NCBI RefSeq assembly: GCF_029932565.1
Contig: NZ_JAOZPV010000004.1
Location: forward strand, 17,641 to 61,667
Length of the DNA stretch: 44,027 bases
Reading direction: 5' to 3'
Source: Hydrogenimonas sp.
GTDB lineage: Bacteria; Campylobacterota; Campylobacteria; Campylobacterales; Hydrogenimonadaceae
Shown here: positions 8,790-43,508 of the stretch, one piece after another
How positions within the stretch are numbered: position 1 is the first letter of the stretch
Layout of the letters: each line of letters begins with the position of its first letter
Position numbers and translations under genes: made by a program
Notes under the pieces: generated by a model
Database searches by the model: none
Told to the model about the DNA's origin: nothing
The model's input: the letters and a program-made list of their open reading frames with translations, nothing else

Positions 8790-9680
8790 CTACTTCTTCT
8801 TGAAGATGCCATACTTTTTCCTCTTTTCCCAGAGAGATTTGCGTGAAATACCCAGTTTTTTGCTCAACTCCGTATCGGGAAACTTGCTCTGGTAGTTGTG
8901 GATGATGAATTTGACATAGTCGTCGATCGTCAGGATTTCGGTACGGTCGAAGATTTTGTGTTCGCTGACCAGTTCGATGGTGTCGAGCTCCTCCGCATCG
9001 AATTTTTCCGTCGTGGATGTGATGACGTCATGTCCTTTGATCCTGTTCAGGAAGGTTTCCCTTTCACTCTTTTTGAGTGTCTGAAATTCCGGCATATAGG
9101 CAATGTAATCGCTGTCAAGCTCCTCCAGTGCACCCATCGAGGAGGCATTGCTGAGTGGCAGATATTTCAAGGGACGCTCCAGTTCCTCGGCCAGGGCGAA
9201 AGCGAAGGCATCCGCCTGTTTCTGGTAGTTGGTTTTCACCATCAGCGGAAGCGGCTGTTTGATCGGTTCCGGAAGCTGGATGTTTTTGAGTTGATGATCG
9301 AGATACTCTTCATAAAATTCGCATCGTTTCTGCAACTGTTTGAAGTCATGGTAATGGTTTATTTTTCGAATCAGCTCTTCGATCATGAAAGGTTTCTGGA
9401 TGTAGTCGTGCGCACCGGCTTTGAGCGGGTCGGTTACGGTGTCGTTGCTGATGTAGGAGACCATCAGAAGGATGATCTCGTCGAGATACTTTTTGATAAC
9501 CGGATAGAAATCCTGTCCGGAAAGATTGGTCGAAAGCAGAATGACATCGTATCGTCCGCTGTTTTGCTCCAGTGCATCGTTGACCGTTGCGAAAATATCG
9601 CAGTCGTGGCCAAAATCGATCAATTTGCCCGCGATACTCTGGGCGAGATAGATTTCATCTTCTATGATTAATATTTTCAT
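8790..9680 (-). CDS. HP1021-like orphan atypical response regulator
   Basis: 296 residues. The N-terminal receiver domain (about 1-118) keeps the acidic pair (IIEDE, 5-9) and the lysine (IQKPF), but the phosphoacceptor aspartate is replaced by serine (DVILLSTN, Ser50). The C-terminus (about 262-296) is a Fis-like helix-turn-helix (LSKKLGISRKSLWEKRKKYG). Length, the missing aspartate and position beside ispDF match HP1021 of Helicobacter pylori and Cj1608 of Campylobacter jejuni, phosphorylation-independent regulators that bind TGTTWCW boxes, act at oriC and respond to redox state. No histidine kinase gene is adjacent. The start overlaps the ispDF stop by four bases (ATGA), so the two are translationally coupled. 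Cysteines at 27 and about 120 are candidates for redox sensing. Confidence 0.9.
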   Translation of the reverse strand: MKILIIEDEIYLAQSIAGKLIDFGHDCDIFATVNDALEQNSGRYDVILLSTNLSGQDFYPVIKKYLDEIILLMVSYISNDTVTDPLKAGAHDYIQKPFMIEELIRKINHYHDFKQLQKRCEFYEEYLDHQLKNIQLPEPIKQPLPLMVKTNYQKQADAFAFALAEELERPLKYLPLSNASSMGALEELDSDYIAYMPEFQTLKKSERETFLNRIKGHDVITSTTEKFDAEELDTIELVSEHKIFDRTEILTIDDYVKFIIHNYQSKFPDTELSKKLGISRKSLWEKRKKYGIFKKK

Positions 9681-10810
9681 GATTGGGTCCAGTCGAAAAA
9701 TTTCAGTGTGGCGGCTGCCTGTACGGCGACACCCTCTCCGCGTCCGACGAAACCAAGCTTTTCGCTCGTCGTCGCTTTGATATTCATATGCTGCGGCGGC
9801 AGTTGCAGCAGTTCGGCGAGGCGAAACCGCATCGCGTCTTTGTAAGGGGATATCCGGGGTGTCTGGGCGACGATCGTGATATCGGCCTGCACGATCTCAT
9901 AGCCTGTATGGGTCAGGAGGTGTACTACGTGACGCAGGAGTTTGGCCGAGTCGGCACCCGCCCATGCCGCATCGGTGTCGGGAAAGAGTTCGCCGATGTC
10001 GCCCATGCCGGCCGCTCCCATCAGGGCGTCGATGAGGGCGTGGATCGCCACATCACCGTCGGAGTGGGCTTTGAAGCCCATCGGAGCCTCTATGTTCACA
10101 CCCCCAAGGCGCATCGGTTTACCTTTTTCGAACGCGTGCACGTCGAATCCCGTACCCATGAATCGGACGGACGTGTCGGGAGAGGTGAGGCAGGGAAGCA
10201 ATGCGATGTCACCGGCGAAAGTGAGTTTGTGCAGCGATGCGTCACCGGCGATGAATGCTACTTTTCCACCCATTGCATGGATGGCGCTGCTTTCATCGGT
10301 GAACTCTGTGCCGCTGTCAAGGGCTTTTTTGAGGATTTCGGTACGGCTGAGCTGAGGTGTCTGGATGCGTAACAGGTGCTTGCGATCGATGGGCTCGCCA
10401 TCGTACCAGACCGTGTCGGGTACGGGCAGAGTGGGCACGGTGCAGTCGGCCCGTTCTACCGCGCTCAGAAGGGTTTTGCAAACGGTTTCGTCGACGCAGG
10501 GTCGCGCTACGTCGCTGACGAGTACCAGCGGGGTGTCGACCGATTCGAGGGCATTGTTCAACGAAGCCTGACGGCTTGTGCCGCCTTCGACAAAACGGAC
10601 CTTTTCGTCGTTCGTATGTCTTTTCATATAATGGAGTTCGTCGGCGTGACCGACGACGACCAGCCTGTCGAAAAGCTGCATGGCCCGGAAGGTTTCGAGC
10701 ACATGCAGCCAGAGCGGATCGCTTCCGATGCGAAGCCACTGTTTCTTGACGGGTTTTTTGAAACGGGTCGCTTCTCCTGCCGCGAGAAGCACCAGTGTTA
10801 AATCAGACAA
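9677..10810 (-). CDS. ispDF: Bifunctional IspD/IspF of the MEP isoprenoid pathway
   Basis: 377 residues. The N-terminal half (about 1-212) is IspD, the 2-C-methylerythritol 4-phosphate cytidylyltransferase, with the nucleotide loop LAAGEATRF and SDVARPCV. The C-terminal part (about 216-377) is IspF, the 2,4-cyclodiphosphate synthase, with the metal-binding GFDVHAF and a KAHSDGDVAIHAL segment. The fusion is characteristic of Campylobacterota and alphaproteobacteria. The start codon is TTG at 10808-10810, preceded by AGGAG at seven bases; no ATG is available there. The gene is the first of the minus-strand run with the HP1021-like regulator and is divergent from thiC. Confidence 0.95.
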   Translation of the reverse strand: MSDLTLVLLAAGEATRFKKPVKKQWLRIGSDPLWLHVLETFRAMQLFDRLVVVGHADELHYMKRHTNDEKVRFVEGGTSRQASLNNALESVDTPLVLVSDVARPCVDETVCKTLLSAVERADCTVPTLPVPDTVWYDGEPIDRKHLLRIQTPQLSRTEILKKALDSGTEFTDESSAIHAMGGKVAFIAGDASLHKLTFAGDIALLPCLTSPDTSVRFMGTGFDVHAFEKGKPMRLGGVNIEAPMGFKAHSDGDVAIHALIDALMGAAGMGDIGELFPDTDAAWAGADSAKLLRHVVHLLTHTGYEIVQADITIVAQTPRISPYKDAMRFRLAELLQLPPQHMNIKATTSEKLGFVGRGEGVAVQAAATLKFFDWTQS

Positions 10811-34872: not shown

Positions 34873-35424
34873 ATGGATCGTACATGCAGCATACTTCTTG
34901 TCCCTTTTTTCGCAGGGGAGTGGCGGTTTGCATCCCCGCTCTCGTTGAAGCTGGAAGAGATATTCTCTCTCGAGGTGGTCTGGAGTTCGCCCGAACCGCT
35001 TCCCGCGGGGAGTTTTGACAGCCAAAGAGGACAGCACAGGGCATTTGAGCTGCTGCGGGCCGCCTGCATGGGCAAAACCGCGGAAAACCAGATCGTACTC
35101 GGAATCACCCATGAAGACATCTACGAAGGTCAGCTCAATTTCGTTTTCGGTCTTGCATCGGCGGCATACCGCTGCGCCGTCATTTCTACAGCCAGACTCT
35201 CCAACCGTTTCTACGGGATGGTGGAAGACGAGAACCTGTTTTTCCGACGCCTCGTAACCGAAGCGGTCCATGAAATCGGCCATACACTGGGGCTCGAGCA
35301 TTGTCCCGATCCGCACTGTGTCATGCATTTTTCCAACTCCCTTTCCGAAACCGACATCAAAGGATACAGATTTTGCGAGGTGTGCCGCCGAAAAGCCGAC
35401 AGGGCATTGGCCCCGTGCCGTTAA
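34873..35424 (+). CDS. Archaemetzincin-family zinc metalloprotease
   Basis: 183 residues. The zinc and structural signature is HEIGHTLGLEHC, then C-V-M and a C-terminal CEVC, closely following the archaemetzincin pattern HEXXHXXGX3CX4CXM...CXXC, with two zinc sites expected. No signal peptide, so probably cytoplasmic. Archaemetzincins occur in Archaea, vertebrates and scattered bacteria; substrates are poorly known and catalytic activity varies. The ATG is one base after the feoB stop, so it is likely coexpressed with feoAB. Confidence 0.88.
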   Translation: MDRTCSILLVPFFAGEWRFASPLSLKLEEIFSLEVVWSSPEPLPAGSFDSQRGQHRAFELLRAACMGKTAENQIVLGITHEDIYEGQLNFVFGLASAAYRCAVISTARLSNRFYGMVEDENLFFRRLVTEAVHEIGHTLGLEHCPDPHCVMHFSNSLSETDIKGYRFCEVCRRKADRALAPCR

Positions 35425-35537: not shown

Positions 35538-35966
35538 ATGGAGTGTGAATTTCCAACCATCAATGCCGATCCGGACGAGATCCGGGATATTTTCAAAGAG
35601 GTCAAAACGATTGCGGTGATCGGACTCTCTCCCGATGCGACAAAAGACAGCCATCGGGTTGCAAAGTATCTTCAGAGTGTCGGATACAAGATCATTCCGG
35701 TTTATCCGAAAGAGGAGACCATTCTGGGCGAGAAGGTCTATCGTTCGCTGAAAGAGATTCCCGGACAAATCGATATGGTGGATATTTTCAGAAAACCGGC
35801 AGCCGTCGGACCGATTGTCGAGGCATGCATAAAGCGGGGTGATGTGAAGGTGGTCTGGCTTCAAGCCGGGATTGTGAACAATGCCGCGGCGGAAGAGGCG
35901 AAAAAGGCCGGCATGAAAGTGGTGCAGAGCCGCTGCGCCATGGTGGATCATAGAAACCTCGCATGA
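35538..35966 (+). CDS. CoA-binding (YccU-like) protein
   Basis: 142 residues with a single Rossmann CoA-binding domain: VIGLSPDATKDSHRVAKYL near 27-45, YKIIPVYPKEE, and WLQAGIVNNAAAEEAKKAG in the second half. The fold is that of the CoA-binding part of succinyl-CoA synthetase alpha subunits. The family is widespread with no settled role. The ATG overlaps ilvA by four bases (ATGA). The 113-base gap upstream contains TATACT (about 35466) as a possible -10 and a GACAGTT/AATTGTC near-palindrome. Confidence 0.9.
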   Translation: MECEFPTINADPDEIRDIFKEVKTIAVIGLSPDATKDSHRVAKYLQSVGYKIIPVYPKEETILGEKVYRSLKEIPGQIDMVDIFRKPAAVGPIVEACIKRGDVKVVWLQAGIVNNAAAEEAKKAGMKVVQSRCAMVDHRNLA

Positions 35967-37174
35967 TTCGACTGGACGATATTCAAACGGCCTATGAGCA
36001 GGTACGGAAAGTAGCTGTCGACACTCCCTTCTCCTATGCCCCGAAACTGAGCGAGGCGAGCGGGTTCGAAGTCTATTTGAAGAAGGAGAATCTTCAGACC
36101 ACCGGTTCGTTCAAGATCCGTGGAGCTTTCAACAAAATTGCATCGCTGAGTGACGAAGAGCGTGCCAAAGGTGTCGTAGCGGCGAGTGCGGGCAACCATG
36201 CACAGGGTGTGGCCCTTGCAGCGAAATATTTCAATATCCCTGCCACGATTATTATGCCGGAGACGACGCCGCTGACAAAAGTGGACGGTGTCAAGTCGTA
36301 TGGTGCCGAGGTCGTGCTTTCGGGGACAAACTACGATGAAGCGTATGCGTATGCGGTAGAGTTCGCGGAAGAGAAAAAACGTGTCTTCATCCACCCATTT
36401 GCGGACGATCAGGTGATTGCGGGACAGGGAACGATTGCACTCGAAATCCTCGACAGATGCGAGTACCCCGATGCACTGCTTGTTCCAGTCGGCGGCGGGG
36501 GACTTATCAGTGGGATCGCTACAGCGGTCAAAGTACTCTCCCCCCGGACCAAGGTGATCGGTGTCGCTGCCGAAGGTGCACCGGCGATGAAACTCTCGTT
36601 CGATGCGAGAAAGCCGATCGATACGACGGGAGTCAGAACGATTGCCGACGGTATCGCCGTACGTGATACCTCGCCGACGACACTTGCCTATATTCTCCGC
36701 TATGTCGACGATATTGTGCTTGTCAGCGACGATGAAATCGCCAATGCGATTCTCTACCTTCTGGAGAAACAGAAGCTGGTGGTCGAAGGTGCGGGTGCCG
36801 TCGGAGTCGCAGCTCTGCTTCACCGACGCCTCGATCTGCCCGAGAATGCAAAGGTCGTCACGGTATTGAGCGGCGGGAATATCGATGTGACGATGCTCTC
36901 CGTCATCATCGAAAAAGGTTTGTTGAAATCCTATCGGAAAATGAAACTCGTCGTGACGCTGGTCGACAAGCCCGGCAGTCTGATGAAACTGACCGAAATT
37001 CTGAAAGATGCGCAGGCCAATATCGTTCAGATCGGCTATGACCGGACTTCGCTCGATCTGAAATTCGGTGATGCCTACGTGTCGATTGCACTGGAAACGA
37101 AAGGCAAAGAGCATCAGCAGCTGATCAAAAGGCTGCTGCACGACTATGGGTATCGTTTTGAAGAGGAACACTGA
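35963..37174 (+). CDS. ilvA: Threonine ammonia-lyase
   Basis: 403 residues. This PLP enzyme deaminates threonine to 2-oxobutyrate, the first step towards isoleucine. TTGSFKIRGAFNK carries the PLP lysine, SAGNHAQGVALAA and PVGGGGLISG are the cofactor-binding loops, and a single C-terminal ACT domain (about 325-403, VTLVDKPGSLMKLTEIL) fits the shorter, TdcB-like/ACT type. Its product is used by IlvBN encoded downstream, so a biosynthetic role is likely; a catabolic role is possible. Confidence 0.93.
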   Translation: MIRLDDIQTAYEQVRKVAVDTPFSYAPKLSEASGFEVYLKKENLQTTGSFKIRGAFNKIASLSDEERAKGVVAASAGNHAQGVALAAKYFNIPATIIMPETTPLTKVDGVKSYGAEVVLSGTNYDEAYAYAVEFAEEKKRVFIHPFADDQVIAGQGTIALEILDRCEYPDALLVPVGGGGLISGIATAVKVLSPRTKVIGVAAEGAPAMKLSFDARKPIDTTGVRTIADGIAVRDTSPTTLAYILRYVDDIVLVSDDEIANAILYLLEKQKLVVEGAGAVGVAALLHRRLDLPENAKVVTVLSGGNIDVTMLSVIIEKGLLKSYRKMKLVVTLVDKPGSLMKLTEILKDAQANIVQIGYDRTSLDLKFGDAYVSIALETKGKEHQQLIKRLLHDYGYRFEEEH

Positions 37175-37182
37175 ACGACGCC

Positions 37183-39282
37183 ATGATTGTTGAAAAAAGG
37201 CTCCAGTTCAAGTGTGCCATCACCGCGATCAAGCCTGTCGAAGGCCGGAGGGTGGCCATTGTCGATGTCGACAATACGGTCCGGTTTTTCAAACTCGGAC
37301 CGGTCGAACTTCTCGATGGTTTCAAAACCTCCATCCAGCAGGATCCCCATCTTCTCAACGGCAGTGACGTATCACGCGACGGACGTTTTGTGGCCTTTGC
37401 TGTCAAAAAAGAGGGGGTGGCCGTTTTCAGCGGTATCCACAAACGTCTTTTGTACCGTTTCAAACGCCATGACGGAGATGTGGAGAGTCTCCGTATCAGT
37501 GACAGACACGAATATCTCGCGACCGGTGGGCAGGATGGCAAGACATTTCTCTGGAGTCTGGTGACCGGACGCATGATCGCTTCGCTCCCCCACCATGCCG
37601 ATTTCGTCACTGCGATCGATTTCAGTCCCAACGGACAGTGGATCGCGACGGGAAGCTTCGACCGCAAAGTGCTGGTGACCAATATCTCGTCGCTTTCCCA
37701 GAGTTTCCGCCTCCGAGGGCACGGCGGTGCGATCAATACGATCAAATTCATCAGTGACCATCGGCTTGTGGCAGCCGACAAAAGCGGAGAAATCGTCGTA
37801 TGGGATTATTTCAACAGCAAGGTGGTCAAACGGCTCAAAAAAATGCTGGACGAGGTAACATCGTTCTGCACGACGCCCGATGACAGATTTCTGTTTGCAG
37901 CCGACAAAAACGGCCTCGTTTCGCTCTATGATCTCAATACGTATGAGATGCTTTCACTCCGCTATCTCTCCTACAGCAAATCGATCAAAAAGATTGCCTA
38001 TGCCAAATCGGGCAATTATCTCATCGTGGGTCTGGAAAACGGAGAAGTGACCTTCAACTCTCCGCTCAAAGAGAGCGCGAAGATGGAGGAGGCCATCGAC
38101 TCCGACGACCTTGTCGAAGCCTACCGACTGGCCGAAGAGAATCCGCTGCTGCGCTACAGCAGTGCCTATATTCGTCTCGAAGCGTTGTGGAACGATGCCT
38201 GCGAAGAGGCAGTCAAACTGCTCGAAGAGGGGAGACGCAACGAAGCGAGAGAGCGCCTGGAACCGTTCAGTGCCGAAAGTTCGAAACGTCTTCTGACGCA
38301 GCAGCTTCTGAATGATTACAGAGAGTTCGAACGATTCAAAACGGCCGTCGAAAGCCGAAAATATCAGCTTGCCTATTCGCTCGCTGCGCAGTATCCGATG
38401 CTCAAACACAATCGCTATTATGCACGAATGGAGCAGGAGTGGGAAGCGGTCTTCTCGCAGGCGAAAAAAATCATCCTCCAAAACGGAGGCGAGGAGCGTG
38501 TGAAAGAACTTTTCAAACCGTTTCGCGGCATTTCGGGGAAAAGTGTTCTGATACAGACGCTTCTGGCCGAAAAAGAGATCTACAAGCTCTTCATGAAACT
38601 TGTTGTCAAAAAAGATTTCAAGGGAGCCATTGAGCTGGCCAAACGCTATCCGGCGATTCGTGAACTGAAAGAGTACAGAAAAATCGAACGCATGGCAGAG
38701 GCTATTACGCAAAAGGCGAAGATGGAGTTGGAGAGAGGGAACTATGCCGAAACGGCACGGCTCGCTTCCAGGTTGATAGAGTTTCCCGATCAGCGCGAAC
38801 TGGCGGAGGAGCTGAAAGAAGAGGCGAACCTTTATGCATCCGCGATGCGCTATTTTGCCGAGAAGAATTACGAGGCGATTTATCGGATGTTGGAGCAGTA
38901 TCCCTATCTCGAAGAGACTCAGATCGTCAAAAATCTCGAAGAGGCATGGCAGAAAGTGGTCAAACGTGCGGAAGTCTCTGCATCGAAAGGCGACGTTGCA
39001 GGACTGAAGAATCTGTTTGATCCCTTCATCCATTTGTCGCAGAAACGTGTCAAAATCATTTCGCTCTTCAAGCAGGCCTATCTCGAACAGCTCGAAAACA
39101 TTTCAGAGCGCGAACCCGGCAGCCTGGCACCGGCTCTCCGGAACTATCTTGACCTTTTCGGTATGGATGACGAACTCGATGCGTGGCTCAGGGATCATGG
39201 GCTGAGCGATATGGGCGAAGAGATTGAAGCCAAAGAGATCGGGACAATCGATCCGATCGGATTGCCCGAGACGATCGTATGA
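37183..39282 (+). CDS. WD40 propeller protein with four ~84-residue helical repeats
   Basis: 699 residues, no signal peptide or membrane segment. Residues 1-295 form a WD40-type beta-propeller, clearest at LATGGQDGKTFLW, IATGSFDRKVLVT and LVAADKSGEIVVW. Residues 302-637 hold four tandem helical repeats. Each has a proline-marked turn: NPLLR (P321), YPMLK (P405), YPAIR (P490) and YPYLE (P574), spaced 84, 85 and 84 residues, and a later PF..S.K block (361, 446, 614; degenerate in repeat 3). The rest is an acidic tail. The layout suggests a scaffold. It is coupled to ppx by a four-base overlap and follows ilvA by eight bases. I know no function for it. Confidence 0.8.
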   Translation: MIVEKRLQFKCAITAIKPVEGRRVAIVDVDNTVRFFKLGPVELLDGFKTSIQQDPHLLNGSDVSRDGRFVAFAVKKEGVAVFSGIHKRLLYRFKRHDGDVESLRISDRHEYLATGGQDGKTFLWSLVTGRMIASLPHHADFVTAIDFSPNGQWIATGSFDRKVLVTNISSLSQSFRLRGHGGAINTIKFISDHRLVAADKSGEIVVWDYFNSKVVKRLKKMLDEVTSFCTTPDDRFLFAADKNGLVSLYDLNTYEMLSLRYLSYSKSIKKIAYAKSGNYLIVGLENGEVTFNSPLKESAKMEEAIDSDDLVEAYRLAEENPLLRYSSAYIRLEALWNDACEEAVKLLEEGRRNEARERLEPFSAESSKRLLTQQLLNDYREFERFKTAVESRKYQLAYSLAAQYPMLKHNRYYARMEQEWEAVFSQAKKIILQNGGEERVKELFKPFRGISGKSVLIQTLLAEKEIYKLFMKLVVKKDFKGAIELAKRYPAIRELKEYRKIERMAEAITQKAKMELERGNYAETARLASRLIEFPDQRELAEELKEEANLYASAMRYFAEKNYEAIYRMLEQYPYLEETQIVKNLEEAWQKVVKRAEVSASKGDVAGLKNLFDPFIHLSQKRVKIISLFKQAYLEQLENISEREPGSLAPALRNYLDLFGMDDELDAWLRDHGLSDMGEEIEAKEIGTIDPIGLPETIV

Positions 39283-40217
39283 TCGCAGTCGACCTGGGGT
39301 CCAATACATTTCGTGCGGTGGCATTGTCATGCGAAACTCTTGAACCGCTGGCGCAGTATGAGAAGATCGTCAGAACGGCCGACAGGATCACGGAGACCGG
39401 GAAAATTTCGAAAGAGGCGGTGAATAGAATCGTGGCGGCCGCGAAAGAGATGCGGGAGAGACTCGACGGAACGGAAGAGATTGTCGCCGTCACGACCGAG
39501 GCGATTCGCCGCGCCGGGAATGCCGGGGAGGTGCTTGAAGAGATCGATCGTCGCAGCGGTATCTGCTTCAGGGTGATATCGGGTGAAGAGGAGGCAAAAT
39601 ATACACTCCTTGCAGTCAAAACCCGTCTCAAAAAACTCCGTTTGGAGAGCGAACGTTTCGTCATGGCTGACATTGGCGGCGGATCGACCGAAATCGTCTT
39701 TTTCGATCGGGGAAACATTCTGATCGAAAGTTTTCCTGTCGGGATCGTCACGGTCGCGCAGCGCTACCGGGAACTTGCCAGAATTGAGGAGGCACTTCCC
39801 TCGCTGATGGGGGAGATGCGCTCACATATCGAGATGGCCGGACACCGGGGATTCCAACCGAAAATATTTGTTGCGACGGCAGGCACGCCGACGACTGTGG
39901 CCGCGATGAAGCTGGGAATGGAGTATGCCACCTATGACGCGGGCAGAGTCAACGGGACACTATTGAACCGCGACGATCTCCATGCGCAGCTTGAAAGACT
40001 CCTCAGCCTCGGAGACGAAGAGAGGCAGAGGCTTGTGGGTGTCGGCAGGGAAGATCTGATAGCGGCCGGCATTCTGATTTTTGATCATCTCTACCGCCTG
40101 CTGGGCTTCGAAGAGGCTGTCGTTATCGATGACGGACTCAGAGAGGGTGTCGCGATTGCCGCCTGTCGGAACCTGGATATAAATGATCTGTTTTCCGAAA
40201 AACATTTACCTGCATGA
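39279..40217 (+). CDS. Ppx/GppA-family exopolyphosphatase / pppGpp phosphatase
   Basis: 312 residues, the short form without the C-terminal HD-like domain of the Escherichia coli enzyme. VDLGSNTFRAVAL (about 4-16) and ADIGGGSTEIVFF (about 130-142) are the two phosphate-binding loops of the ASKHA fold, and TTEAIRRAGNA fits the family. It may hydrolyse inorganic polyphosphate or pppGpp; the sequence does not separate these. Its ATG overlaps the WD40 gene stop (ATGA), so the two are coupled. A 149-base gap follows. Confidence 0.9.
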   Translation: MIAVDLGSNTFRAVALSCETLEPLAQYEKIVRTADRITETGKISKEAVNRIVAAAKEMRERLDGTEEIVAVTTEAIRRAGNAGEVLEEIDRRSGICFRVISGEEEAKYTLLAVKTRLKKLRLESERFVMADIGGGSTEIVFFDRGNILIESFPVGIVTVAQRYRELARIEEALPSLMGEMRSHIEMAGHRGFQPKIFVATAGTPTTVAAMKLGMEYATYDAGRVNGTLLNRDDLHAQLERLLSLGDEERQRLVGVGREDLIAAGILIFDHLYRLLGFEEAVVIDDGLREGVAIAACRNLDINDLFSEKHLPA

Positions 40218-40329
40218 CAAAGGTGGCGAGGTCCGTTTTCGTATGGTCCGATCTGTCATCTTGCCGCTTTTGAAATCCAATATTTTCTTTCTCGTAACGA
40301 TCTTCAGCCTTTTTAGAGGTGCTCTGGGA

Positions 40330-40335
40330 TATAAT
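40330..40335 (+). promoter_or_regulatory. Consensus -10 box for ilvBN
   Basis: A perfect TATAAT lies 31 bases upstream of the ilvB ATG; the -35 region is poor. I see no leader peptide rich in branched-chain codons and no T-box. Confidence 0.5.
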
Positions 40336-40366
40336 CAGCAAATTTCTAACCTTAGGAGATGCGGCG

Positions 40367-42058
40367 ATGGAGATGACCGGCGCGCAGATGGTGATCGAAG
40401 CGATGAAGCTGGAAGGGGTCGATACGGTATTCGGCTACCCTGGCGGCGCTATCATGAACGTTTACGATGAAATCTACAAGCAGAACGACTTCAGGCATAT
40501 ATTGACCCGTCACGAGCAGGCAGCGGTCCATGCGGCGGACGGCTACGCGCGGGCAACCGGAAAAGTGGGTGTTGCATTTGTAACCAGCGGCCCCGGTTTT
40601 ACGAATGCCGTAACGGGACTGGCCACGGCCTATATGGACTCGGTGCCGATGGTGGTCATCAGTGGGCAGGTTCCGATCACGATGATCGGAACCGACGCCT
40701 TTCAGGAGATCGATGCGACAGGTATCAGCCGCTCCTGTACCAAACACAACTATCTCGTCCGCAGTGCCAAGGAGCTGCCCCTTATCCTGAAAGAGGCGTT
40801 CTACATCGCATCGTCGGGTCGACCGGGGCCGGTGCATGTGGATATTCCCAAGGATGTAACGGCAGAGTTGGCGACGTTCGAGTATCCCACCCATGTCGAT
40901 CTTCCGACTTACCGTCCGACGACGAAAGGCAATGTGCGCCAGATCAAAAAGGCAGCCGAAGCGATCTGCAATGCCAAACGTCCCGTCTTCTATCTTGGCG
41001 GTGGTGTCATCAGTTCGGGCAGTGCCGATCTGGTCCGGGAATTTGTCCAGACGACCCAGATTCCGGCTGTGGAGACTTTGATGGCCCGGGGAGCTCTGCG
41101 CCATGACGATCCTCTGCTGCTGGGCATGGTGGGTATGCACGGCAGCTACCAGGCCAACATGGCTATGAGCGAAGCGGACCTGATGATCGCCCTGGGCCCC
41201 CGTTTCGATGACCGGGTTACGGGAAAACTCTCCGAGTTCGCCAAACATGCAAAAGTGATCCATGTCGATATCGATCCCAGCAGTATTGGCAAACTGGTCG
41301 ATGTGGACTATCCGATCGTCGGGGATCTCAAAGAGGTATTGGAAGTGATGATGCCGAAAGTCAAGGAGTGTGTCGATCCGGACCGCTTCCAGGCATGGCG
41401 GAACATTCTGAAACGCTACAACGAAATCCATCCGATGCAATTCGAGGACAGTGACAAAGTGATCAAGCCCCAATGGGTTATCAAACGGGTCGGAGAGATC
41501 CTGGGTGAGAGGGCAGTTGTCTCCACCGATGTGGGGCAACACCAGATGTGGACGGCGCAGTTCTATCCTTTCAGCTATCCGCGTCAGCTTGTTACGAGCG
41601 GCGGACTGGGAACCATGGGCTTCGGCTTCCCTGCGGCGATGGGGGTCAAACGGGGTATGCCCGACAAGGTGAGTATCAACTTCACGGGGGATGGCTCGAT
41701 TCTGATGAATATTCAGGAGCTGGTGACGGCAGTGGAGGCCCGACTGCCGGTTGTCAATATCATCCTCAACAACCACTATCTCGGTATGGTGCGTCAGTGG
41801 CAGACATTCTTTTACGACAAGCGCTATGCCGAAACCGATCTCAGCTTCCAGCCGGATTTTGTCCGTCTGGCTGAAGCGTGTGGAGGAGTCGGATATCGGG
41901 TCGAGACCAAGGAGGATTTCGACGAGGCGCTGGAAGATGCGGTCAACAAAGGGGTTGTCGCGATGATTGATGTCATTGTGGATCGGGAAGAGAATGTTCT
42001 TCCGATGGTTCCGAGCGGCGGAACGCTCTACAATATGATGCTGGAATACAAGGATTGA
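40367..42058 (+). CDS. ilvB: Acetolactate synthase large subunit
   Basis: 563 residues from ATG 40367 with AGGAG eight bases upstream; the track start is before the promoter. This thiamine diphosphate enzyme condenses pyruvate with pyruvate or 2-oxobutyrate in valine, leucine and isoleucine synthesis. The catalytic glutamate is in LTRHEQAAVHAADGYAR; VTSGPGFTNAVTGLATAY and the ThDP/Mg2+ motif GDGSILMNIQEL are intact. FAD-binding middle domain segments such as GPRFDDRVTGKL mark the anabolic type. ilvN follows directly. ThiC in this window supplies the thiamine precursor it depends on. Confidence 0.96.
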   Translation: MEMTGAQMVIEAMKLEGVDTVFGYPGGAIMNVYDEIYKQNDFRHILTRHEQAAVHAADGYARATGKVGVAFVTSGPGFTNAVTGLATAYMDSVPMVVISGQVPITMIGTDAFQEIDATGISRSCTKHNYLVRSAKELPLILKEAFYIASSGRPGPVHVDIPKDVTAELATFEYPTHVDLPTYRPTTKGNVRQIKKAAEAICNAKRPVFYLGGGVISSGSADLVREFVQTTQIPAVETLMARGALRHDDPLLLGMVGMHGSYQANMAMSEADLMIALGPRFDDRVTGKLSEFAKHAKVIHVDIDPSSIGKLVDVDYPIVGDLKEVLEVMMPKVKECVDPDRFQAWRNILKRYNEIHPMQFEDSDKVIKPQWVIKRVGEILGERAVVSTDVGQHQMWTAQFYPFSYPRQLVTSGGLGTMGFGFPAAMGVKRGMPDKVSINFTGDGSILMNIQELVTAVEARLPVVNIILNNHYLGMVRQWQTFFYDKRYAETDLSFQPDFVRLAEACGGVGYRVETKEDFDEALEDAVNKGVVAMIDVIVDREENVLPMVPSGGTLYNMMLEYKD

Positions 42059-42060
42059 CG

Positions 42061-42534
42061 ATGAAAATAGAACGACGTGTAATTTCCGTAATCGTACAAA
42101 ACGAACACAGTGTCCTCGCCCGCATCACGAGTCTTTTCGCTGCAAGGGGATACAATATCGAAACCCTGACGGTTGCGCCGATTCCTGAGAGCAATATGTC
42201 ACGCCTGACCATCGAAACGAGAGGAAACGTCCGGGTCATCGAACAGATCATCAAACAGCTCCACAAACTCATTCCGACCTATAAAGTGATCGAACATGAG
42301 GAGATGGTCGAAAAAGAGATGGTGCTGATGAAATTTCCGATCAACGAGTCGCTGGCCAACATCCAGGCCCTCTGCGAAGCCTACAACGGAGGGATCGCCA
42401 ACGTCAGCAGCCAGCATATCATCACGATGGTGGCCGATGAACCGAAGCGGGTCAAACACTTTATCGAAGCTGCCCAGCGCTTCCATCCTGTGGAGATTGT
42501 CCGCGGTGGTGTCGTGGCGATGGAGCGTGAATGA
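42061..42534 (+). CDS. ilvN: Acetolactate synthase small (regulatory) subunit
   Basis: 157 residues from ATG 42061, with AAGGA six bases upstream. An N-terminal ACT domain (about 4-78, ISVIVQNEHSVLARITSLFA with RGYNIETLTVAP) binds valine for feedback inhibition; a C-terminal ferredoxin-like domain (about 80-157) completes the IlvN/IlvH form. It activates and regulates IlvB. Its stop overlaps the lpxD ATG by four bases, tying amino acid and lipid A genes together. Confidence 0.95.
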   Translation: MKIERRVISVIVQNEHSVLARITSLFAARGYNIETLTVAPIPESNMSRLTIETRGNVRVIEQIIKQLHKLIPTYKVIEHEEMVEKEMVLMKFPINESLANIQALCEAYNGGIANVSSQHIITMVADEPKRVKHFIEAAQRFHPVEIVRGGVVAMERE

Positions 42535-43508
42535 GACTGAGGGAACTGGCTCATGCCATCGGCATTCCCTACGATGGAGCCGACATCGAGATTTCGGGAC
42601 TGGGAACGCTGAAAAATGCCAAATCCGATCAGCTTAGTTTTCTCGACAATCCGAAGTATCTGAACGATCTCAAATCCACGAAGGCGGGTGCGGTTATCAT
42701 AGCGCCCAAACATGCCGGAGACGTACCGGAAGGAGTCATCGCGCTGGTCGACGAGGAACCCTATTTGAAATTGGCACTCGCCAGCCGGCTCTTCGCACCC
42801 GCACCTATGAAAACGGAGGGTGCGGATCCGGTATTCGGCGAGGAGTGCCGCATCGCCGAGAATGTCTCTTTCGGCAAAGAGGTCGTGCTTGGCGACAGGG
42901 TGACGATCATGCCGGGGTGTTACATCGGCGACGGTGTCACCATCGGCAACGACACGCTTCTCTACCCCAATGTCGTGCTCTATCACGATACCCGAATCGG
43001 TGCACGCTGCATCATACATGCCAATACAGTCATCGGCAGTGACGGATATGGTTTCGCCCACACGAAAACGGGTGAACATATCAAGCTCTACCAGCTGGGG
43101 AACGTGATCGTCGAAGATGACGTGGAGATTGGTTCCAACACCTCCATCGATCGGGGTACCATCGAACCGACGATCATCAAACGAGGTGCCAAACTGGATA
43201 ATCTGATCCAGATCGCTCATAACTGTGTGGTGGGGGAACACTCTCTCATGACCGGACAGGTGGGTCTTGCAGGTTCGACGATTTTGGAACGCAATGTTGT
43301 CATGGGAGGCCAAAGCGGTGCCATGGGGCATCTGACTATCGGTGCTTTCAGTACGATCGCTGCCAAAGCCGGGGTTACCAAATCCCTGAAAGGTGGCACG
43401 GTGTATGCCGGCTATCCCATCATGGAGCATAAGCGGTGGCTCAAGCTCAACGCGATGCTGTCGCGTATGCTGAAACAGTTCAACCCCATCTCAAAGGAGA
43501 GCGAATGA
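42531..43508 (+). CDS. lpxD: UDP-3-O-acyl-glucosamine N-acyltransferase
   Basis: 325 residues. LpxD adds the second acyl chain to UDP-glucosamine in lipid A synthesis, in the cytoplasm. An N-terminal uridine-binding domain (about 1-95) is followed by a left-handed beta-helix of hexapeptide repeats (about 100-285), with the catalytic histidine H230 in IQIAHNCVVGEH, and a C-terminal helix. The end of the gene contains the CCCATCTCAAAGGAG repeat word that supplies the next gene's ribosome binding site. Confidence 0.95.
   Translation: MRLRELAHAIGIPYDGADIEISGLGTLKNAKSDQLSFLDNPKYLNDLKSTKAGAVIIAPKHAGDVPEGVIALVDEEPYLKLALASRLFAPAPMKTEGADPVFGEECRIAENVSFGKEVVLGDRVTIMPGCYIGDGVTIGNDTLLYPNVVLYHDTRIGARCIIHANTVIGSDGYGFAHTKTGEHIKLYQLGNVIVEDDVEIGSNTSIDRGTIEPTIIKRGAKLDNLIQIAHNCVVGEHSLMTGQVGLAGSTILERNVVMGGQSGAMGHLTIGAFSTIAAKAGVTKSLKGGTVYAGYPIMEHKRWLKLNAMLSRMLKQFNPISKESE
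43485..43499 (+). repeat. AACCCATYTCA repeat, copy 5 (shortest)
   Basis: CCCATCTCAAAGGAG inside the last codons of lpxD. As in copy 4 (18688-18703) the word runs straight into a GGAG ribosome binding site, here that of the 75-residue gene. The 5' side diverges (ACCCC). Confidence 0.4.

Follow-up and report, generated by a model that had tools for sequence, protein, structure and literature searches.

What kind of protein is encoded between an ilvA-type gene and a ppx/gppA-type gene in this Hydrogenimonas genome, and what might it do there? The window analyzed here, a stretch of 44,027 nt, carries on its forward strand a run of closely packed genes, one of which joins a WD40 propeller to a long helical C-terminal half. 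The genes of this run and the parts of the protein are laid out as follows.

35538..35966, + strand: CoA-binding-domain protein, 5' of ilvA and a member of the conserved gene run (PF13380, E 3.8e-42; synteny)
35963..37174, + strand: ilvA-type threonine deaminase (PALP, E 1.3e-88; ACT/Thr_dehydrat_C weak)
37183-39282, + strand: the WD40-solenoid open reading frame, 699 aa
37183..38067, + strand: N-terminal seven-bladed WD40 beta-propeller, residues 1-295, as predicted from Pfam, AlphaFold2 and Foldseek
38092..38343, + strand: helical repeat unit A, residues 304-387 (unit profiles, unit HMM, AlphaFold2 helices)
38344..38595, + strand: helical repeat unit B, residues 388-471, the best-conserved unit (unit profiles, HMM, AlphaFold2)
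38599..38850, + strand: helical repeat unit C, residues 473-556, lacking the PF..S.K block (profiles, HMM, AlphaFold2)
38851..39102, + strand: helical repeat unit D, residues 557-640 (unit profiles, unit HMM, AlphaFold2 helices)
39103..39279, + strand: capping helices to residue 671 (AlphaFold2 helices 645-659 and 663-671) and a short acidic C-terminal tail, 672-699
39279..40217, + strand: ppx/gppA-type phosphatase (PF02541, E 2.1e-38)
40319..43508, + strand: presumed ilvB, ilvH and lpxD, at the 3' end of the conserved run (open reading frames; clusters common across loci)

Eight bases separate the start of the WD40-solenoid gene from the end of ilvA, and at its far side the stop codon (39282) overlaps the ppx start (39279) in an ATGA. 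The genes that we take to be ilvB, ilvH and lpxD were named by recognizing their translations and by synteny, rather than by family search. Elsewhere in the window, an M54 archaemetzincin-like small metallopeptidase with an HExxHxxGxxH motif (34873-35424, + strand; PF07998, E 5e-25) lies directly 3' of feoB, and positions 9677-10810 of the reverse strand hold one open reading frame for what, judging from its translation, is apparently a fused IspD-IspF protein.

The N-terminal half is the more familiar. Residues 1-295 match PF25173 in Pfam with E 9.7e-55, and PF00400 scores 92.7 bits against a cut-off of 27, passing the curated threshold. The AlphaFold2 model, for which the input was the window protein with three Hydrogenimonas-clade relatives, has 28 strands spanning residues 2-293, that is to say seven blades, with pLDDT mostly at 85-92, and in Foldseek the full model matches designed and natural seven-bladed WD40 propellers with E 3e-17. 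By sequence and predicted fold, residues 1-295 appear to be an ordinary closed propeller, each blade of which has four strands. Seven blades are also seen in 5yzv, a WD40 domain from Thermomonospora, but the matched structures lack the solenoid that follows the propeller here.

The original prediction that this second half consists of four regular helical units was drawn from prolines in the matching contexts NPLLR, YPMLK, YPAIR and YPYLE. These do fall at residues 321, 405, 490 and 574, a spacing of 84, 85 and 84, and the PF..S.K block noted in three of the four units is found at 361-368, 446-453 and 614-621, the third unit having EFPDQRE instead. Orthologues were then gathered from Campylobacterota and 34 of them aligned, full length and C-terminal part separately. 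When the C-terminal profile is compared with itself, offsets of 169, 253, 84 and 85 are the top four of 245 (z 6.2, 5.7, 4.5 and 3.0, respectively), followed by 211 and 42, and all six unit-against-unit pairs are significant in hhalign, from E 8.7e-19 (A-B) to 1.5e-8 (C-D); the regular 84-residue repeat is thus recovered by both approaches. When the units are cut into 42-residue halves, hhalign gives a good alignment only between corresponding halves of different units; it is strong among the first halves, and among the second halves it is clear for A-B alone. First halves match second halves weakly or not at all. The repeat is thus built on 84 residues, and any older period of 42 residues is faint at most. 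The half-units were rejected as simple TPR duplicates, hhalign between them not being significant.

A unit HMM made from the orthologues also picks out the units, with their register unchanged, in distant paralogues that did not contribute to it. By this HMM, units are present in 105 family members, with four in most; a few divergent members have one unit that scores under the threshold, and seven members of 554-598 aa (L109, L114 and L117-L121) have three units only, which suggests that unit number changes in whole 84-residue steps. Among the other open reading frames of the sampled neighborhoods, the unit HMM matches nothing outside the family. In the window's own genome there are exactly four unit matches, 4/4 in the WD40-solenoid frame, and eight or twelve are common in genomes where the gene has more copies. 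Occurrence of the unit in other architectures was rejected, since no outside frame matched and the host genome's matches are confined to one frame.

Structure prediction likewise returns an alpha-solenoid after the propeller, with a helix pattern that recurs in each unit. In the AlphaFold2 model of unit A the helices run over residues 310-319, 321-325, 327-348, 352-362 and 366-390, and the pattern common to every unit is one of approximately 10, 5, 22-24, 7-11 and 25 residues. Mean pLDDT is 84.8 at full length and 88.1 for the C-terminal half alone; because pTM is only 0.56 and 0.54, respectively, the relative placement of the parts and the curvature of the solenoid are uncertain. A unit consists of two dissimilar helical hairpins and bears a conserved Glu-Lys pair. 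The pair is clearest in unit B, with K453 in 97/97 and E417 in 92/97 of the members longer than 600 residues that make up our conservation sample; equivalents are present, less strictly, in units A and D, and at both places in unit C most members carry hydrophobic or aromatic residues. The alignment suggests that the two side chains may touch, stapling adjacent hairpins. Across the 97 members the mean entropy is 2.61 bits for the solenoid and 2.67 bits for the propeller, and the two halves, being equally conserved, are thus under similar constraint. The tail at 672-699 has a net charge of approximately -6. At the C-terminal ends of proteins of family f8 (e.g., L048, L052 and L057) one sees a conserved peptide, WRPSMIV.SILD, that is missing from the Hydrogenimonas proteins and that could be a binding motif.

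The combination is by no means peculiar to this genome. Of 298 Campylobacterota genomes, 90, or about a third, give a match to the C-terminal profile; these are distributed over 23 of 58 genera, 36 of 60 nearer relatives are positive as well, and a genome has one to five copies. Every C-terminal match examined also matches the full-length profile of propeller plus solenoid, and the matches listed, all of which come from the same bacterial order, lie in open frames mostly of 690-750 aa. The unit matches listed across the phylum lie in frames of 600-750 aa, except in G199, where the gene is split by contig ends. This is, then, a fixed two-part architecture, conserved at full length as a multi-copy family within Campylobacterota. 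Exact peptide patterns, run against the GTDB species genomes, returned only three close relatives, namely two Hydrogenimonas MAGs and one Campylobacterales MAG. A phage or plasmid origin was rejected, there being no C-terminal match in phage or plasmid collections; those plasmid matches that are listed for the whole protein fall in its propeller. In our search of the literature we found no paper on the propeller-solenoid family. One locus, L123 (G318:C19, 3649-5793), has a frame open for 715 codons in which the first ATG, GTG or TTG gives a protein of 537 aa, 522 bases after ilvA; the short start is probably a start codon or assembly problem.

WD40 propellers and TPR-like solenoids are interaction folds. 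No named family or enzyme domain is found in the C-terminal half by Pfam, NCBIfam or PDB sequence searches, so that the initial claim of a unit outside the named repeat families holds for the libraries tested, and the two halves are kept together under similar constraint. For these reasons we consider a cytosolic, soluble, non-enzymatic protein-interaction scaffold to be the most probable reading, at a probability of roughly 0.6. The proposal of a cytoplasmic scaffold fits insofar as both parts are interaction folds and the window protein has no transmembrane-like segment, its maximum 19-residue hydropathy being 0.91 (the 19-residue mean exceeds 1.6 in 9/97 members, with a highest value of 1.98); the scaffold role itself is a prediction. 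Against it stands the uncertain overall shape of the model at the pTM values given above, and the solenoid may instead have an enzymatic or nucleic-acid-binding role.

The protein could simply be a divergent TPR protein fused to a WD40 propeller, its 84-residue unit having no special role, and this we regard as a real, if clearly secondary, possibility. Some other family members do give sub-threshold Pfam TPR matches (best E 0.00026), the unit profile reaches a summed E of 1.8e-8 against 4y6c, a set of designed kinesin-light-chain TPR-like repeats, with no single stretch passing, and there is the weak 42-residue peak. On the other hand, the significant period is 84, with no detectable homology between half-units and no 34- or 42-residue repeat of equivalent hairpins to be found; no TPR model exceeds the Pfam cut-off in the window protein; and the solenoid has no PDB match in Foldseek at E <0.001 (best 0.25). 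A viral fold library gave no significant match. The helical part also has no HEAT/ARM profile, and the sole PADLOC match, HEAT-ARM_XIII, was rejected as a sign of its identity, as it covers residues 64-164 and so lies in the propeller. The model would place the C-terminal part loosely in the TPR-like helical-hairpin solenoid class (2 x 42 residues), as a regular array of helix pairs. Like TPR and the 42-residue kinesin light chain type it has stacked helix pairs, a weak 42-residue period and weak sequence matches, yet it repeats every 84 residues, the two hairpins of a unit differ, and its long helices span 22-25 residues. The unit lies outside the named families tested, without being a structurally alien fold. 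The closest known kind by domain order is the propeller-then-solenoid membrane coat (MC) architecture, whose definition calls for a propeller at the N-terminus and stacked helix pairs (SPAH) at the C-terminus and which was reported only in eukaryotes and PVC bacteria, with three G. obscuriglobus proteins listed at 1,039-1,287 aa (Santarella-Mellwig and colleagues, PMC2799638). The AlphaFold2 model has just this order of N-terminal propeller and C-terminal SPAH domain. As compared with these protocoatomer proteins, however, the present one is of approximately 700 aa, belongs to another phylum and has no detectable homology to them. PDB sequence searches and Foldseek reveal neither homology nor significant fold likeness of the solenoid to a coat protein, and because the order alone is shared we do not file it as one. 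The IFT-A subunits, which also join WD40 to a TPR-like solenoid, are alike in fold order and are the most frequent of the solenoid's fold matches, with 12 of the best 50 listed, all of them non-significant (Foldseek E at least 0.25, TM <0.25). A coat-like role, in which the protein would form a lattice or a tether on the cytoplasmic membrane in the manner of eukaryotic coat or nucleoporin scaffold subunits, could draw on that shared order and on the IFT-A matches, but there is no significant sequence or fold match to coats, no membrane segment and no known endomembrane system in these bacteria; nor is domain order alone proof of function. We therefore hold it to be very improbable. We give equally little credence to a non-PVC coat- or tether-like scaffold whose solenoids would polymerize or dock on a membrane- or enzyme-bound platform, with paralogues dedicated to particular clients; if true, bacteria that have no endomembrane system would have evolved the coat architecture independently.

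Specific clients for the favored interaction scaffold have to be sought in the gene neighborhood. In the window's orthologue clade, no more than 32 bases separate the gene from ilvA on its 5' side in 31 loci, with the CoA-binding gene 5' of ilvA in nearly all, and the next gene is either ilvB directly (14 loci, at most 150 bases) or ppx (13 loci), in most of which ilvB then comes after ppx. Most loci have ilvB/ilvH in one of these two places. The run with ilvA that had been pointed out is thus a constant feature of the clade. Such an arrangement would suit a metabolic scaffold on which threonine deaminase and acetohydroxyacid synthase would be held side by side, 2-oxobutyrate being handed on from IlvA to IlvBH, but genes of the same operon need not encode interacting proteins and the paralogues sit elsewhere, and so we think such a scaffold doubtful, even as the best-supported specific guess at a client. 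Less supported is Ppx, for which a link through overlapping codons had been proposed. The protein might sense the polyphosphate or (p)ppGpp state and regulate the overlapping Ppx/GppA phosphatase. The overlap is real, being found in 11 of 13 ppx loci (most Hydrogenimonas-clade loci and three of the four f8 loci with ppx), and the Hydrogenimonas-clade propeller is basic, with a net charge of approximately +7.6. The linkage is lineage-specific, however: ppx adjoins 13/105 sampled family members, namely all nine Hydrogenimonas-clade loci and four of f8, most f8 orthologues having no ppx there, and the propeller charge falls to a mean of +2.6 in ilv-linked f8 members and -0.4 in other paralogues. 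The basic propeller was accordingly dropped as a polyphosphate binder, its charge varying between clades, and Ppx was rejected as an obligate general partner; a regulatory tie to Ppx in particular we consider very unlikely. From these counts, the ppx link is a local feature and ilvA the clade's constant neighbor. A survey of Campylobacterota for ppx as a neighbor of the family reveals no general link, as other clades adjoin genes that we take, from their translations and without family search, to be polA/mobA, minD/dprA/ruvX, recJ/fliI/folE, ispG, secA and others. Since paralogues adjoin such unrelated genes, operon position is weak evidence for any single client, and the family as a whole is tied to no single pathway.

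As an interaction scaffold, the protein might be expected to work through both of its halves. One partner, probably a peptide or a loop, would be bound by the face of the propeller; a second would be bound or spaced by the solenoid, acting as a curved arm. In the ilvA-linked clade the partner may be the operon's own threonine deaminase or acetohydroxyacid synthase, and the paralogues of other operons would serve different clients.

What is new here is the joining of a WD40 propeller to a TPR-like solenoid with an 84-residue unit that is absent from the libraries tested, in a multi-copy family. This phylum-wide family, which has had no name, is carried by about a third of sampled Campylobacterota, each genome having one to five copies. 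The propeller-solenoid order had been used to tie PVC bacteria to the membrane coats of eukaryotes; it is now seen in another bacterial phylum, and is therefore weaker as a marker of endomembranes. The family offers a compact model for the role of bacterial propeller-solenoid proteins, and its constant place behind ilvA in the window's clade provides a concrete first candidate client.
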